A DNA stretch of 64,000 nt, taken from the NCBI RefSeq assembly GCF_000423865.1, contig NZ_AUIU01000016.1, forward strand, positions 1-64,000. The letters are read 5' to 3'. The notes under the pieces were generated by a model that ran no database searches, was not told the origin of the DNA, and saw only the letters and a list, made by a program, of their open reading frames with translations. The translations under genes and the position numbers were made by a program. The DNA is from Thermodesulfovibrio thiophilus DSM 17215. Its GTDB lineage: Bacteria > Nitrospirota > Thermodesulfovibrionia > Thermodesulfovibrionales > Thermodesulfovibrionaceae. Below are positions 39,720 through 54,150 of this stretch, piece by piece. The stretch's first letter is position 1. The number at the start of each line of letters is the position of its first letter.

Positions 39720-40276
39720 TATTTCTATCTCTGTCCTGTTGCGCAACTCTAAAAGAGATGAAAATAACAATGCAGAGTCAGGAACATCTCAGCATGGCAA
39801 AGAAACTTTATAATCAGGCAGACTATGAAGGTGCTCTGCAAGAAAACGAAAAAGTTATATCACTGCGTGGAAATGTTCCGCCTGCAGATGAAGCCCTCTT
39901 TTATGCAGGGCTCATTTATGTCCATTACGGATATCCTGAAAGGAATTATCAGAAATCCATTGATTACTTCAAAAGACTCGTGCAGGTCTTTCCTCAAAGC
40001 CAATATGCAGAACAGGCTAAAATATGGATCAATGTACTTGAAGAAAATGAAACAATGACCAGAAAAATTGAAGAATTGAACAACTCAATAAAAACATTAC
40101 AGGAAGAAAATGATACATTAAAAAACCAAATGGAAGAGTTAGACAATTCTCTAAAAACATTGCAGGAAGAAAATGATAGACTAAAGAAAGTGATTGAAGC
40201 GTTGAATAATTCAATAAAAAGAAGCAATCAGGTCGATATTGAGATAGAAGAAAAAAAGAAGGAGCTTTTAAAATAG
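39662..40276 (+). CDS. QseG-like lipoprotein with TPR-like region and coiled coil
   Basis: A 204-residue protein starting at TTG inside the kinase 3' end; GGAGGT lies 5 nt before it, which decides the start. A hydrophobic leader ending LSLSCC resembles a lipobox. The middle (AKKLYNQADYEGALQENEKV, FKRLVQVFPQSQYAEQAK) looks TPR-like. The C-terminal ~80 residues form a coiled coil built from 21-residue units (ELNNSIKTLQEEND, ELDNSLKTLQEEND, ALNNSIK). QseG in E. coli is an outer-membrane lipoprotein acting on the sensor kinase; the slot between kinase and regulator matches. Confidence 0.75.
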   Translation: MGRKQIRIWKYFYICITSLIFLSLSCCATLKEMKITMQSQEHLSMAKKLYNQADYEGALQENEKVISLRGNVPPADEALFYAGLIYVHYGYPERNYQKSIDYFKRLVQVFPQSQYAEQAKIWINVLEENETMTRKIEELNNSIKTLQEENDTLKNQMEELDNSLKTLQEENDRLKKVIEALNNSIKRSNQVDIEIEEKKKELLK

Positions 40277-42159: not shown

Positions 42160-42181
42160 CCCACCACCCTCTTCTCTTTTA

Positions 42182-42216
42182 TAAGAGGGGTCTTTTGAAA
42201 AGACCCCTCTTATTTT
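42182..42216 (+). terminator. Strong intrinsic terminator after the BON gene
   Basis: A perfect 15-bp inverted repeat TAAGAGGGGTCTTTT / AAAAGACCCCTCTTA spans 42182-42212, followed by a T run. It is 23 bp after the BON stop codon and may act in both directions. Confidence 0.92.
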
Positions 42217-42263: not shown

Positions 42264-42590
42264 ATGATATATTGCAAAAAGTATGGAATTGCATCTACGA
42301 AGAAGTGCATCAGGTGTGGTAGGATAAACATAATTTCGCTGGGTAGTGATCTATATTCCTGCGAATGTGGTTATTTGCTACACAGAGATATTCATGCTGC
42401 TCGAAATATTCTTTTTGAGGGATTAAATCAGCTACCTACGGAGCGTAGGGAAGCTGCTCTGCAATACGCAGAGAGAAAAGCCTGTGGAGAGGAGTCCTCT
42501 ACTCTGTCAATGTTTGAATACCTAAACAGTATTCCGCATGTCAGGGCAAGACTCCTCGTTGAAACAGGAAGCCTCAGTGCTTTAGCCTGA
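42264..42590 (+). pseudogene. TnpB (IS605 OrfB) C-terminal fragment
   Basis: Encodes YCKKYGI followed by the TnpB zinc finger: KKCIRCGRI and YSCECGYLLHRDIHAARNIL, including the last RuvC aspartate region. The N-terminal three quarters are missing and the usual sequence before the zinc finger is shortened, so no nuclease is made. The frame continues about 60 codons past the last conserved motif into the right-end region, as in other IS605 elements where the 3' end overlaps the guide RNA. Confidence 0.85.
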
Positions 42591-42600: not shown

Positions 42601-42874
42601 AGGATCGTAATTATTAAAAATTTTCTGTTAAAGGAAACTATTTGTAATGCAACCATTTGTCAAATTTTTAATTGAGCATATTTGAGAATGGCTCTATCAA
42701 GCTCATACTTTACTAAGACAAACTATTCACTGTTACCCTGTTTAGAATTCTGGCTATTTTTAAATATTCCTTTGCAAAATTACCAATAGTTTAGCAGAAA
42801 TCCTAGCCACTTGTGACTGGAGAAGTCAGTATCAGAAGCTTCATAACATCAGATTTGTTGATTGGATAAAAAAT

Positions 42875-42892
42875 TGTATGAAATTTCATACA
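42875..42892. promoter_or_regulatory. Perfect palindrome TGTATGAAATTTCATACA
   Basis: An 18-bp perfect inverted repeat 175 bp upstream of the -24 element of the next sigma-54 promoter. It shares both arms with the palindrome at 42958. Candidate upstream activator site for the GlrR-like regulator. Confidence 0.7.
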
Positions 42893-42957
42893 TGCCTATA
42901 AAATGTAGAATTTTCACTGAAATAATATTGAATTAACAGAATTTTAAGATATTTTAC

Positions 42958-42975
42958 TGTATGAATATTCATACA
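42958..42975. promoter_or_regulatory. Perfect palindrome TGTATGAATATTCATACA
   Basis: A second 18-bp perfect inverted repeat, differing from the first only in its central bases and lying 92 bp upstream of the -24 element. This is almost the same distance as the imperfect site before the BON gene promoter (95 bp). Confidence 0.7.
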
Positions 42976-43049
42976 TAAAAACCGTTCAACTATCAAAAAA
43001 CCACTTATATAGATTAAATTTATCAATATTATCAAACAGTTATCGAAGT

Positions 43050-43123: not shown

Positions 43124-43396
43124 ATGAAGAAAATTCTCGCATCATTAATGGTTCTTGTATTTACTTTCGCAGTTGCAGGCCTTAGTTTTGCAGCAGATAA
43201 CCCTGTAAAAGGCACCGTTACCAAGATTGAGGACAAAAAAATAACTGTAATTGATGAGAAAGGCAATGAGGCATCATTTGAAGTAAAGGATGCTGCAGGA
43301 TTAAAGGTTGGCGATAAGGTAGAAATTAAGAATGGCGTGGTCAAAAAAGCAAAAGAAAGTGACATGGACAAAAAAGCGCCTAAATCCAAATATTAA
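43124..43396 (+). CDS. Small secreted protein, DUF5666-like
   Basis: A 90-residue protein: signal peptide ending GLSFA-ADN (about residues 1-23), then a small beta-rich domain (VKGTVTKIEDKKITVIDEKG, EASFEVKDAAGLKVGDKVEI) and a lysine-rich tail. The pattern resembles DUF5666-type periplasmic beta-barrel repeats; function unknown. GGAGGTG 6 nt upstream fixes the ATG at 43124 rather than the GTG at 43115. Its 3' part and downstream hairpin are duplicated at 44525-44759. Confidence 0.75.
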   Translation: MKKILASLMVLVFTFAVAGLSFAADNPVKGTVTKIEDKKITVIDEKGNEASFEVKDAAGLKVGDKVEIKNGVVKKAKESDMDKKAPKSKY

Positions 43397-43481
43397 TCAG
43401 ACAGACAATTGTCTGACATGCTCCACCATCTTAACACGGGAAGGTTGTTTTTCCCGTGTTAAGATACATCTATCATAAAAA
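43247..43481. repeat. 235-bp direct repeat, copy 1
   Basis: Covers the last 50 codons of the 90-residue protein gene, the palindrome CAGACAATTGTCTG (43402-43415) and the hairpin 43431-43462. Copy 2 is exactly 1278 bp away with no insertions or deletions. The coding differences I can see (GAG/GAA, GGC/GGT, GTA/GTC, GCA/GCC) are all synonymous. Confidence 0.9.
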
Positions 43482-43507
43482 CTGTAAATTTTCACGAAAA
43501 TTTACAG
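43482..43507. repeat. Perfect inverted repeat CTGTAAATTTT/AAAATTTACAG
   Basis: Two 11-nt arms with loop CACG begin immediately at the end of the 235-bp repeat. It is AT-rich and lacks a T-run, so it is not a standard terminator. It could mark the end of an inserted segment or be a binding site. Confidence 0.6.
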
Positions 43508-43526
43508 CGATGAATGTCTGAATAGA

Positions 43527-43655
43527 AATTTTTTTGAAAATACTGTATATATAAAAGAGGTAGTGGAGCAACACAGAATATTCTATAATACTCACAGGCC
43601 TCACAGCAGTCTTGGAGGTAAAACACCTTATGAGGTTTTTAAGCAAGATGCATAA
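43527..43655 (+). pseudogene. IS3/IS481-type transposase C-terminal scrap
   Basis: An open frame reads FFENTVYIKEVVEQHRIFYN, then THRPHSSLGGKTPYEVFKQ and a stop: the typical end of an rve-type transposase (RPHxxLGxxTP). Nothing upstream encodes the DDE core, so it is a remnant. Its resemblance to the IS3 copy at 50.9 kb is limited to family level. Confidence 0.75.
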
Positions 43656-43709
43656 TTATACTGTTTCAGTATCGGGGTGCGTTATTTTTAAAAAACCATA
43701 TATACGTAT

Positions 43710-44135
43710 TTATCTTGTTCCAAAAAATGGGGGCATATCAGTTCTTTTAATTCCTTCCAGGCTGTCAAAATCTTCATCAAAACTGTAGATTTCATTAATT
43801 CCGTTTTTTAACATAAAACAATAGTTAAAAATATCTGCAAATGAAAAATTTTTTTGAGAGTAAATCTCCAGTGCATGCTCGAATATATCCTTGTAGTCCA
43901 GCTTTAACCCTCTTAAGTTCAATACTGGAAGTATTAAAATTTTTATCTCCTCTCTTGGAATTTTGTAGTAACTCTGAAGAGTAAAAATGGTCTCAAAAAT
44001 AACTAGAGGAGTTGTTATAACTTTTTCTTCACCCTTCTCTACTCTTTTTAATAATTCAAGAACTGACAAAGCTTTTTCTTTGTCATCTGCCGTGAAGTAG
44101 CGTAACAGTAAATTAGTATCCAAAAACTTCATCAA
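43710..44135 (-). CDS. PIN-domain toxin (VapC-like)
   Basis: A 141-residue PIN ribonuclease. Acidic active-site residues appear in KFLDTNLLLRYF, VIFETIF, SFADIFNY and SFDEDFDSL. PIN toxins cut tRNA or other RNAs when the antitoxin is lost. The start overlaps the stop of the upstream AbrB-type gene by 4 nt, the usual antitoxin-toxin order. Confidence 0.88.
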   Translation of the reverse strand: MMKFLDTNLLLRYFTADDKEKALSVLELLKRVEKGEEKVITTPLVIFETIFTLQSYYKIPREEIKILILPVLNLRGLKLDYKDIFEHALEIYSQKNFSFADIFNYCFMLKNGINEIYSFDEDFDSLEGIKRTDMPPFFGTR

Positions 44136-44395
44136 AACTCCTTTAAGACATCTTCGGCAATCTCTTCTTCCACAATTTTTCTTATTTCCTTAAAATCCTC
44201 CGGTCTTTTCTTTGCACTCACCTTACCAAAACCTTCTTCAATACTTGACCTAAAAGGAATAAGTTTAACTTCACCACCCTCTAAAACAAATTTAACCTGA
44301 TCTCCTGGATTAAGTTTTAAAAACTCTCTTATTCTTTTAGGCAGTGTAATCTGGGATTTTTTGGTTAAAACAGTTTTATCAGTAATTTTGGGCAT
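44132..44395 (-). CDS. AbrB/SpoVT-type antitoxin
   Basis: An 87-residue protein. The N-terminal swapped-hairpin DNA-binding domain reads SQITLPKRIREFLKLNPGDQ and VKFVLEGGEVKLIP. The charged C-terminus would bind the toxin. Together with the PIN gene it forms a type II toxin-antitoxin operon. AGGT lies upstream of the ATG. Confidence 0.88.
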   Translation of the reverse strand: MPKITDKTVLTKKSQITLPKRIREFLKLNPGDQVKFVLEGGEVKLIPFRSSIEEGFGKVSAKKRPEDFKEIRKIVEEEIAEDVLKEF

Positions 44396-44435
44396 ATTCT
44401 TACCTCATTTTTTGTAATACTTTAACTTAAGTATT

Positions 44436-44464
44436 ATTATAAACTGGTTTTTAACCACTGTCAA
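44436..44464 (-). promoter_or_regulatory. Consensus promoter of the toxin-antitoxin operon
   Basis: Minus-strand TTGACA (44459-44464), 17-bp spacer, TATAAT (44436-44441): a perfect match to the sigma-70 consensus. AACTTAA motifs flank it on both sides (ACTTAAGT downstream, AACTTAAC upstream) and are plausible antitoxin binding sites for autoregulation. Confidence 0.85.
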
Positions 44465-44524
44465 GTTAAGTTGGTCTAACTTCTCCCTGCCACAAGTGGC
44501 GAGGCTTTCTGCTAATCTCTGCTG

Positions 44525-44674
44525 GTAATTGATGAGAAAGGCAATGAAGCATCATTTGAAGTAAAGGATGCTGCAGGATTAAAGGTTGGTGATAAGGTCG
44601 AAATTAAGAATGGCGTGGTCAAAAAAGCCAAAGAAAGTGACATGGACAAAAAAGCGCCTAAATCCAAATATTAA
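44525..44674 (+). pseudogene. 5'-truncated copy of the 90-residue secreted protein gene
   Basis: Encodes the last ~49 codons (from VIDEKGNEASFEVK to APKSKY) in frame to a TAA, without start, signal peptide, promoter or ribosome site. All substitutions noticed relative to 43247-43396 are synonymous, which implies divergence under selection before truncation. Confidence 0.85.
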
Positions 44675-44759
44675 TCAGACAGACAATTGTCTGACATGCT
44701 CCACCATCTTAACACGGGAAAAACAACCTTCCCGTGTTAAGATACATCTATCATAAAAA
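44525..44759. repeat. 235-bp direct repeat, copy 2, with inverted hairpin
   Basis: Matches 43247-43481 without gaps. The 32-nt hairpin at 44709-44740 is the exact reverse complement of that at 43431-43462, so the loop reads AAAACAACC instead of GGTTGTTTT. The flanking bases are otherwise identical. The stretch up to 44781 holds no gene. Confidence 0.9.
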
Positions 44760-49916: not shown

Positions 49917-50940
49917 TTTTAATTTTTTTATATCTATATTTAATTCCAGCAAGTTTGTAGTAAATAAAACTTATTATCAAATAAATAAAACCAAAATTTG
50001 ATAAAATTATTTTATAATTTTCCGAAAAAAAATTCTTAGAATTTGAAATTCCATTTAATTGATGAGATGAGATTAGTTCATCGGTCAATTTAACATAATT
50101 TTTATGGAACTTATACATGATTTGATTTTTATCAAAATCAGAGAATACCTGATATTTTAAATTAAATAAACTCATCTTTTTTCTATTATATAAAATACCC
50201 TGGTGGTGTAATGTATTTTTAATTTTTATTTTCCAACTCCATTCAGGACAGTGAACAATTTCAACTTTATCACTTATAGTTTTTACTTTTCCTACAATCA
50301 AATCCATATTTTCATCTAACTGTTTATAATCAGGTATTTTTAACAAGATATCCCCAATGTTAACAAAAAGAAGCCATTTTCCATTTGCACACATTATCCC
50401 CTTATTCATTGCATCATATATCCCTTTATCCTTTTCACTTACCCAATAATCAATATAATCCTCATATTTTTTTATGATGTCGAGGGTGCCGTCGGTGGAG
50501 CCGCCGTCGATGATTATGTATTCCACATTGGGATATGTTTGATTGATGACGCTTAATATTGTTTCTTCAAGGTATTTAGCGCCGTTATAGACTACTGTAA
50601 TAACAGTAATAAGAGGAAGATATGTAATAGGTGTTTGATATTGAGCGTTAGATGACAGATATTGCTTTATTTTAGACTGTATATCCTCTGGTACTGGCAT
50701 GACAGGATTATTATCACTATCAGTTATAAACCACTTACCATCAACCAACTTATATGAATGTTTGAAATACCCTTTTGTTCTAATGCCACCTTCGCCCTGT
50801 CTACCTTCACCTTCAGGCAAAAAGAGCATTGTTTCAAATTTATCATCTGGATTACCTGAAATTGTTGAGTTTTGTATGTTAAACTGCGGAATATTGATTT
50901 TGGAATTGCAACAATTTTTTCCACACAAAGTTAAGCACAT
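49882..50940 (-). CDS. GT2 glycosyltransferase, 5' end altered by IS3
   Basis: A 352-residue protein. The GT-A domain begins [20 protein letters not shown] and includes [18 protein letters not shown] and [12 protein letters not shown] ~100-residue N-terminal module ([39 protein letters not shown]) precedes it and is shared with the gene at 52984. The first codons (MCLTLC) are read from the IS3 terminal repeat, so the original start has been lost. The acceptor half differs completely from the sibling gene. Confidence 0.8.
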   Translation of the reverse strand: MCLTLCGKNCCNSKINIPQFNIQNSTISGNPDDKFETMLFLPEGEGRQGEGGIRTKGYFKHSYKLVDGKWFITDSDNNPVMPVPEDIQSKIKQYLSSNAQYQTPITYLPLITVITVVYNGAKYLEETILSVINQTYPNVEYIIIDGGSTDGTLDIIKKYEDYIDYWVSEKDKGIYDAMNKGIMCANGKWLLFVNIGDILLKIPDYKQLDENMDLIVGKVKTISDKVEIVHCPEWSWKIKIKNTLHHQGILYNRKKMSLFNLKYQVFSDFDKNQIMYKFHKNYVKLTDELISSHQLNGISNSKNFFSENYKIILSNFGFIYLIISFIYYKLAGIKYRYKKIKNEIYNFISNLQ

Positions 50941-52983: not shown

Positions 52984-54150
52984 TTATCTTTTAATAAAAT
53001 TATTGTTTTTTGATTTAATATGTTGGTAGCAACAATACAAGAAAGACAACGCTCCCCAAAATAAGCCAGAGTTTCTTATAGATATTTTAGTCATTTCTAA
53101 AATCTTTAGCTGTGCACTTACCCCATCTGGCATAGCATAACTTATAAACTTATCATCACCTATAAATTTAGCCCCTGTTCTATAAAGCCGCAAATTAAAA
53201 TCATAATCAGCATAAGTTGGATACTTAATGTTAAAAGGAGGTCCAACATGCAATATTTTGGGTACTAAAAGTGCTTGATGATGCAAAGTATTTCCTATAT
53301 TTAATTTCCATCCATGCACAGAATTAAATATTGAACTTTTTAGGTAAACTTTACCATATATGATGCTATCATTATTTTCTATTATAGTTTTTTGAGATGG
53401 TAATGACAACACTGTGTCTCCAGCACCTAGGAATAAAATTCTTGAATTTTTATTTACTAAAATCCATCCCTTATTCATTGCATCGTATATTCCTTTATCC
53501 TTTTCACTTACCCAATAATCGATATAATCCTCATATTTTTTGATGATGTCGAGGGTGCCGTCGGTGGAGCCACCGTCGATAATGATGTATTCTACATTTG
53601 GATACGTTTGATTGATGACGCTTAATATTGTTTCTTCAAGGTATTTAGCGCCGTTATAGACTACTGTAATAACAGTGATTAAAGGAAATTCTGTAACAGG
53701 TGTTTGGTGTTGGGCTGTGGATGTCAGGTACTGTTTTATTTTAGACTGTATATCCTCTGGTGCTGGAATGACAGGATTATTATCACTATCAACTATGAAC
53801 CATTCACCATCCACCATTTTATATGAATGTTTGAAATATCCTTTTGTCCTAAGGCCGCCTTCACCTTGACGGTTTTCCCCTTCTGGCACAAAAAGCATCG
53901 TTTCAAATTTATCATCCGAAGAGCCGATAAACTTTGAGTTTTGTATTTTTAGCGCTGGATAATTAATGCTAAATTTTGTGTCCTCTGTGACTCTGCCATT
54001 TTTATCGTATTTGAGACAGTCGTCAAAGGAACGGAGATAAAGGTGGTGAGTAGTGATCGGTAATTTGTGATCGGGAGAAGAAAACTGTAAATGATGATCA
54101 GAACACTTTGTCATATTTTTAATTTTTATTCCCTTTGGATTTTTTCTCAT
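52984..54150 (-). CDS. GT2 glycosyltransferase with shared N-terminal module
   Basis: A 388-residue protein. N-terminal [20 protein letters not shown] and [20 protein letters not shown] form the extension shared with the gene at 49882, which has lost the first part. The GT-A domain again has [20 protein letters not shown] and [20 protein letters not shown]. After DAMNKGW the two proteins diverge, giving a different acceptor domain. The first ~35 residues ([20 protein letters not shown]) are encoded by a degenerate heptamer array, so the true start may be further in. Confidence 0.82.
54030..54105. repeat. Degenerate 7-bp-period array at the 5' end of a glycosyltransferase gene
   Basis: On the minus strand the sequence splits into heptamers such as TCCCGAT CACAAAT and TACCGAT CACTACT CACC. 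It encodes His/Ser/Pro-rich residues not found in related transferases. One of at least seven such arrays in this locus. Confidence 0.6.

Follow-up and report, generated by a model that had tools for sequence, protein, structure and literature searches.

An exactly inverted loop in a terminator-like hairpin of a duplicated gene end in Thermodesulfovibrio thiophilus, probably the footprint of a template switch

We analysed a window of 64,000 nucleotides from Thermodesulfovibrio thiophilus DSM 17215 (positions 1 to 64,000 of contig NZ_AUIU01000016.1), in which the end of a gene of the ExtJ family is present twice (Table 1). The product of the full-length gene scored 60.9 bits against the NCBIfam model (cut-off 52.5) and matched no family in Pfam, and a protein scan of the genome contigs collection confirmed no relative. 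The same genome contains another copy of the gene (C11:1199-1471), which is 57% identical and has flanks that align with those of the genus homologs; it seems to be this genome's counterpart of the genus-wide homolog. The gene in the window is nearer to homologs in another family of the order (67%), suggesting that it was acquired or is an old paralog. Two near-identical 19-nt palindromes, which are perhaps operators, lie upstream of it (TGTATGAAATTTCATACAT at 42875-42893 and TGTATGAATATTCATACAT at 42958-42976). Its second copy lacks the 5' side of the gene and retains an open frame (44516-44671) with no stop codon and with 94% identity.

The locus is a rearranged, decayed mobile-element neighbourhood. 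The remnant of a transposase C-terminus between the two copies (HRPHSSLGGKTPYEVF) presumably belongs to the IS3-type family, judging by its motif. An element ending 6 bp before copy 2 is an inverted relative of a segment downstream of the TnpB fragment and is probably an IS605-type right-end remnant. The genes for a toxin and an antitoxin also lie between the copies, preceded by a perfect match to the consensus sigma-70 promoter (TTGACA-17-TATAAT, 12/12; 44464-44436, minus strand). Elsewhere in the window we noted three tandem repeats of 63 bp that are 70-73% alike (40035-40223, near the end of a coding frame) and a direct repeat of 300 nt with 88% identity (50378-50677 and 53447-53746).

Table 1. 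Features of the duplicated gene end and its surroundings, in window coordinates
Feature	Position	Strand	Basis
TnpB C-terminal fragment (IS200/IS605 type); context, outside the inversion	42264..42590	+	Pfam PF07282 (4.4e-8); NCBIfam TnpB (9e-5, below its cut-off)
Full-length gene, 90-aa secreted protein (signal peptide), ExtJ family; 3' part in repeat copy 1	43124..43396	+	NCBIfam NF040942 ExtJ
Repeat copy 1 (3' part of gene and 3' region)	43247..43481	+	Pairwise repeat comparison
Small stem-loop directly after stop codon, 7-bp stem, 6-nt loop	43397..43416	+	RNA fold
38-nt terminator-like hairpin, copy 1; 15-bp arms, loop GGTTGTTT (43443-43450)	43428..43465	+	Repeat comparison, RNA fold
Presumed IS3-type transposase C-terminus remnant	43560..43655	+	Translation
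PIN-domain toxin	43710-44135	-	Pfam, NCBIfam
MazE/AbrB-type antitoxin	44132-44395	-	Pfam, NCBIfam
Inverted relative of 42788-42820, 85%	44479..44518	-	Inverted pair, pattern search
Repeat copy 2, gene truncated on 5' side (from about codon 42)	44525..44759	+	Pairwise repeat comparison
Small stem-loop of copy 2, same as in copy 1	44675..44694	+	RNA fold
38-nt hairpin, copy 2; identical arms, loop inverted, AAACAACC (44721-44728)	44706..44743	+	Repeat comparison, RNA fold

Alignment of the two repeat copies, described previously as a gapless pair, confirmed that they are 235 bp each, without gaps and at an offset of 1278, and revealed 12 mismatches. Four of these lie in the coding part (43270, 43312, 43321, and 43351), and all four are synonymous changes in third codon positions, for which the chance expectation under random substitution is about 0.15%. 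The remaining eight mismatches are contiguous and make up the entire loop of a hairpin (GGTTGTTT versus AAACAACC). The flanks around this hairpin are colinear over 181 bp on the left and 16 bp on the right, with the four mismatches and no gap. In the noncoding 3' regions (43397-43481 and 44675-44759), the 77 nt outside the loop are identical although synonymous sites differ, so this region may be constrained or may have been homogenised recently. The restriction to synonymous differences suggests that divergence took place when both genes were still intact and copy 2 had not yet been truncated, perhaps with the two copies as alleles of two strains. A second hairpin (CTGTAAATTTTC and GAAAATTTACAG, 43482-43507) begins at the position immediately following repeat copy 1.

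The hairpin reads ATCTTAACACGGGAA-GGTTGTTT-TTCCCGTGTTAAGAT in copy 1 and ATCTTAACACGGGAA-AAACAACC-TTCCCGTGTTAAGAT in copy 2, and the two are exact reverse complements. The arms pair perfectly in both copies (15/15 bp), and the inversion keeps the loop length of 8 nt while all eight loop bases differ. An 8-nt loop would be an exact reverse complement by chance in about 1 in 65,000 cases (4^-8), and perfect arms of 15 bp are beyond what five Markov resamplings of the window produced, where the longest arm was 12. The preliminary description was right about the exact inversion and gave the hairpin as 32 nt; the block of exact reverse complementarity extends over 38 nt at most, one extra base per side breaks the match, and the span 43431-44740 takes in only the inner 32 nt of each hairpin. 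As RNA, the two orientations form structures of similar stability (-23.5 kcal/mol, z -8.3, for copy 1; -22.0 kcal/mol, z -8.2, for copy 2), and hence a flip of the loop should be near neutral. A search for more copies of the hairpin, as proposed in the preliminary description, found none, either in the genome (1.87 Mb) or in 60 relatives. No exact match turned up in the genome and viral collections, and a plasmid search yielded no match. A similar hairpin on a viral contig has only the arm core in common and differs in loop and flanks, and we took it as a chance resemblance.

We surveyed homologs of the gene in the genus and order, processing 24 loci and reading 19 of them in the right orientation. 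In 15 of the 19, a hairpin with perfect arms of at least 8 bp lies 1-27 nt past the stop codon, each time with a different sequence, and at least three of the other four have an imperfect hairpin when inspected by eye. The position of the 3' hairpin is thus conserved and its sequence is not, a pattern that speaks against a recombinase site as well as against a mobile element. With unrelated hairpins at the same position in 15/19 homologs, the hairpin is the gene's own 3'-end element and tolerates sequence change. It begins 31 nt from the stop codon in the window and, as in intrinsic terminators, forms, shortly behind the gene, a stable stem that includes G-C pairs. The stem is followed directly by ACATCTATC instead of a T-run in both copies, and a terminator scan listed no terminator at the 38-nt hairpin; for these two reasons we call it only terminator-like. 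Another perfect hairpin with 15-bp arms and a 3-nt loop lies just past a BON-domain gene (42181-42213), and genes in this genus may typically end in long perfect hairpins.

The simplest account, which we consider likely, is that the loop was inverted in place, in one of two lineages, when replication switched templates twice (between strands) at the arms. The nascent strand would copy one 15-bp arm, pair with the identical stretch of the opposite strand, copy the loop from there, and resume on its original template within the second arm. Such an event would leave the arms and flanks unchanged and reverse only the loop. A reversed loop between perfect arms thus resembles the footprint expected of an interstrand switch with return, a reading that draws on precedent as well as on the footprint. 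The arms pair at 15 of 15 bp, and spacer inversions are known from perfect or near-perfect arms of more than about 9 bp (PMC8604942). We infer a single inversion event and not a switch between two states, and the event most likely belongs to a known type of small-scale mutation instead of representing a novel switch. The preliminary description had considered an inversion between short arms, caused either by template switching or by a recombinase; the inversion between short arms stands, template switching is the best supported cause (precedents in PMC8604942 and PMC8794818), and the recombinase is disfavoured for reasons given below.

A non-replicative route would give a product identical to the one observed. 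The hairpin could be extruded as a cruciform, cut at the junction or the hairpin tip, and rejoined with the loop reversed, and folding back or extrusion is indeed feasible for an 8-nt loop between perfect 15-bp arms, as judged from pairing in the RNA fold. We found no precedent for this route in the cited literature, which explains the inversions of spacers and loops on record by template switching (PMC8604942, PMC8794818), and we regard it as unlikely. It is very unlikely that one loop was written in the wrong orientation during amplification or during assembly, the latter being a refuting case named in the preliminary description. The assembly is a draft of 18 contigs, and a palindromic hairpin within a near-identical repeat is hard to assemble. 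However, the distinct outer flanks and the four other fixed differences indicate that the copies were assembled apart, assembly k-mers usually exceed the 15 bp of the arms, and the genome is 99.76% complete with 0% contamination.

We also asked how often such flips occur, using four hairpins of E. coli with arms of 11-12 bp, which are shorter than the 15 bp here, and loops of 4-6 nt. Matches to three of these hairpins came from 4,930 to 5,374 genomes, and matches to the remaining one, which lies in a prophage, from 363. The matches were ranked by coverage x identity, so that a full-length flipped copy would top the list. The full-length flipped form occurred 0 times for all four hairpins in these genomes, a count that covers full-length forms and leaves aside short partial matches of high identity (202 records for one hairpin and 2 for another). 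Within the limits of this test, loop inversion does not appear to be generally frequent in bacteria or to be generally a rapid flip-flop. A comparison of two sister species offered about 120 kb of alignable sequence at about 15% divergence and few shared hairpins. It is very unlikely that the hairpin of T. thiophilus flips often, with both loop forms in the population, or that it is a recombinase site through which the toxin-antitoxin segment could invert.

The recombinase is the least probable of these explanations. The 15-bp inverted arms and the 8-bp asymmetric spacer resemble the architecture of loxP/FRT sites, several tyrosine recombinases are encoded in the genome (contigs C1, C3, C9, C11, and C16), and two opposed sites of this kind could invert the toxin-antitoxin segment between them (43466-44705). 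Yet recombination at a pair of such sites turns around the DNA that lies between them and has no way of reversing a single spacer whose two flanks keep their position, so the observed state is not a product of loxP/FRT-type recombination. Unlike these systems, the hairpin has no site family and no linked tyrosine recombinase: its half-sites show no enrichment over the reversed control in the genome (133 versus 181 matches, up to 2 mismatches allowed), and a search restricted to tyrosine recombinases found none on this contig. The homologs carry unrelated hairpins at the same place. To our knowledge, no known invertase could synapse two sites that lie as close together as these arms, which are 8 bp apart, and when the two hairpin copies recombine, their loops are either both flipped or both left as they were. 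The latter point also excludes two-step homologous recombination between the arms of the hairpins, in which the outer pair flips both loops and the inner pair neither. Inversion of the whole segment is excluded by the left flank of copy 2, which lies inside the segment yet is in direct orientation. The preliminary description had named independent insertions as a refuting case; that a small palindromic element inserted twice, once in each orientation, is excluded by the identical flanks and the lack of other copies in the genome and the relatives searched. An origin of the hairpin from an IS605 or REP element was rejected, as the nearby IS605-like end differs in sequence.

The locus provides a clean case, within one genome, of a loop inversion at a terminator-like hairpin of a bacterial protein gene, an event of a kind already known. 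The sister copy serves as a built-in control, with colinear flanks and otherwise only synonymous changes. Aligners would count this inversion as eight substitutions, and loop inversions scored in this way inflate the apparent divergence. The hairpin layout could also be used as a simple reporter for interstrand template switching in bacteria.

A search of the literature available to us found no paper on loop inversion at bacterial terminators; related events are known from other settings. In Saccharomyces cerevisiae, 10 spacer inversions, confined to arms of >9 bp, were attributed to intermolecular template switching (PMC8604942). As in our case, the arms are short and perfect and only the spacer is reversed, but the yeast inversions lie in coding genes, have spacers of 2-5 bp, and were seen between strains, whereas ours lies in a bacterial 3' region, has an 8-nt spacer, and separates paralogous copies in one genome. 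In rRNA, 69 clusters consist of a loop inversion only, some of them bacterial and some with loops of 7-8 nt (PMC8794818). There too, the entire loop of a perfect hairpin is reversed and its length kept; these cases were inferred on rRNA phylogenies, whereas ours concerns the terminator-like hairpin of a protein gene. Minute hairpin inversions are common in plastids (PMC2903610, which cites Kelchner and Wendel 1996), and the trnH-psbA spacer shows intraspecific loop inversions between 18-bp arms (PMC2903610). The plastid loops are longer (25-27 bp) and polymorphic within species, while the bacterial loop has 8 nt and both forms occur in one genome. Nevertheless, both combine a noncoding hairpin next to a gene with long perfect arms, a flipped loop, and matching flanks, and the trnH-psbA inversions appear to be the closest anatomical parallel to the hairpin of T. 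thiophilus.
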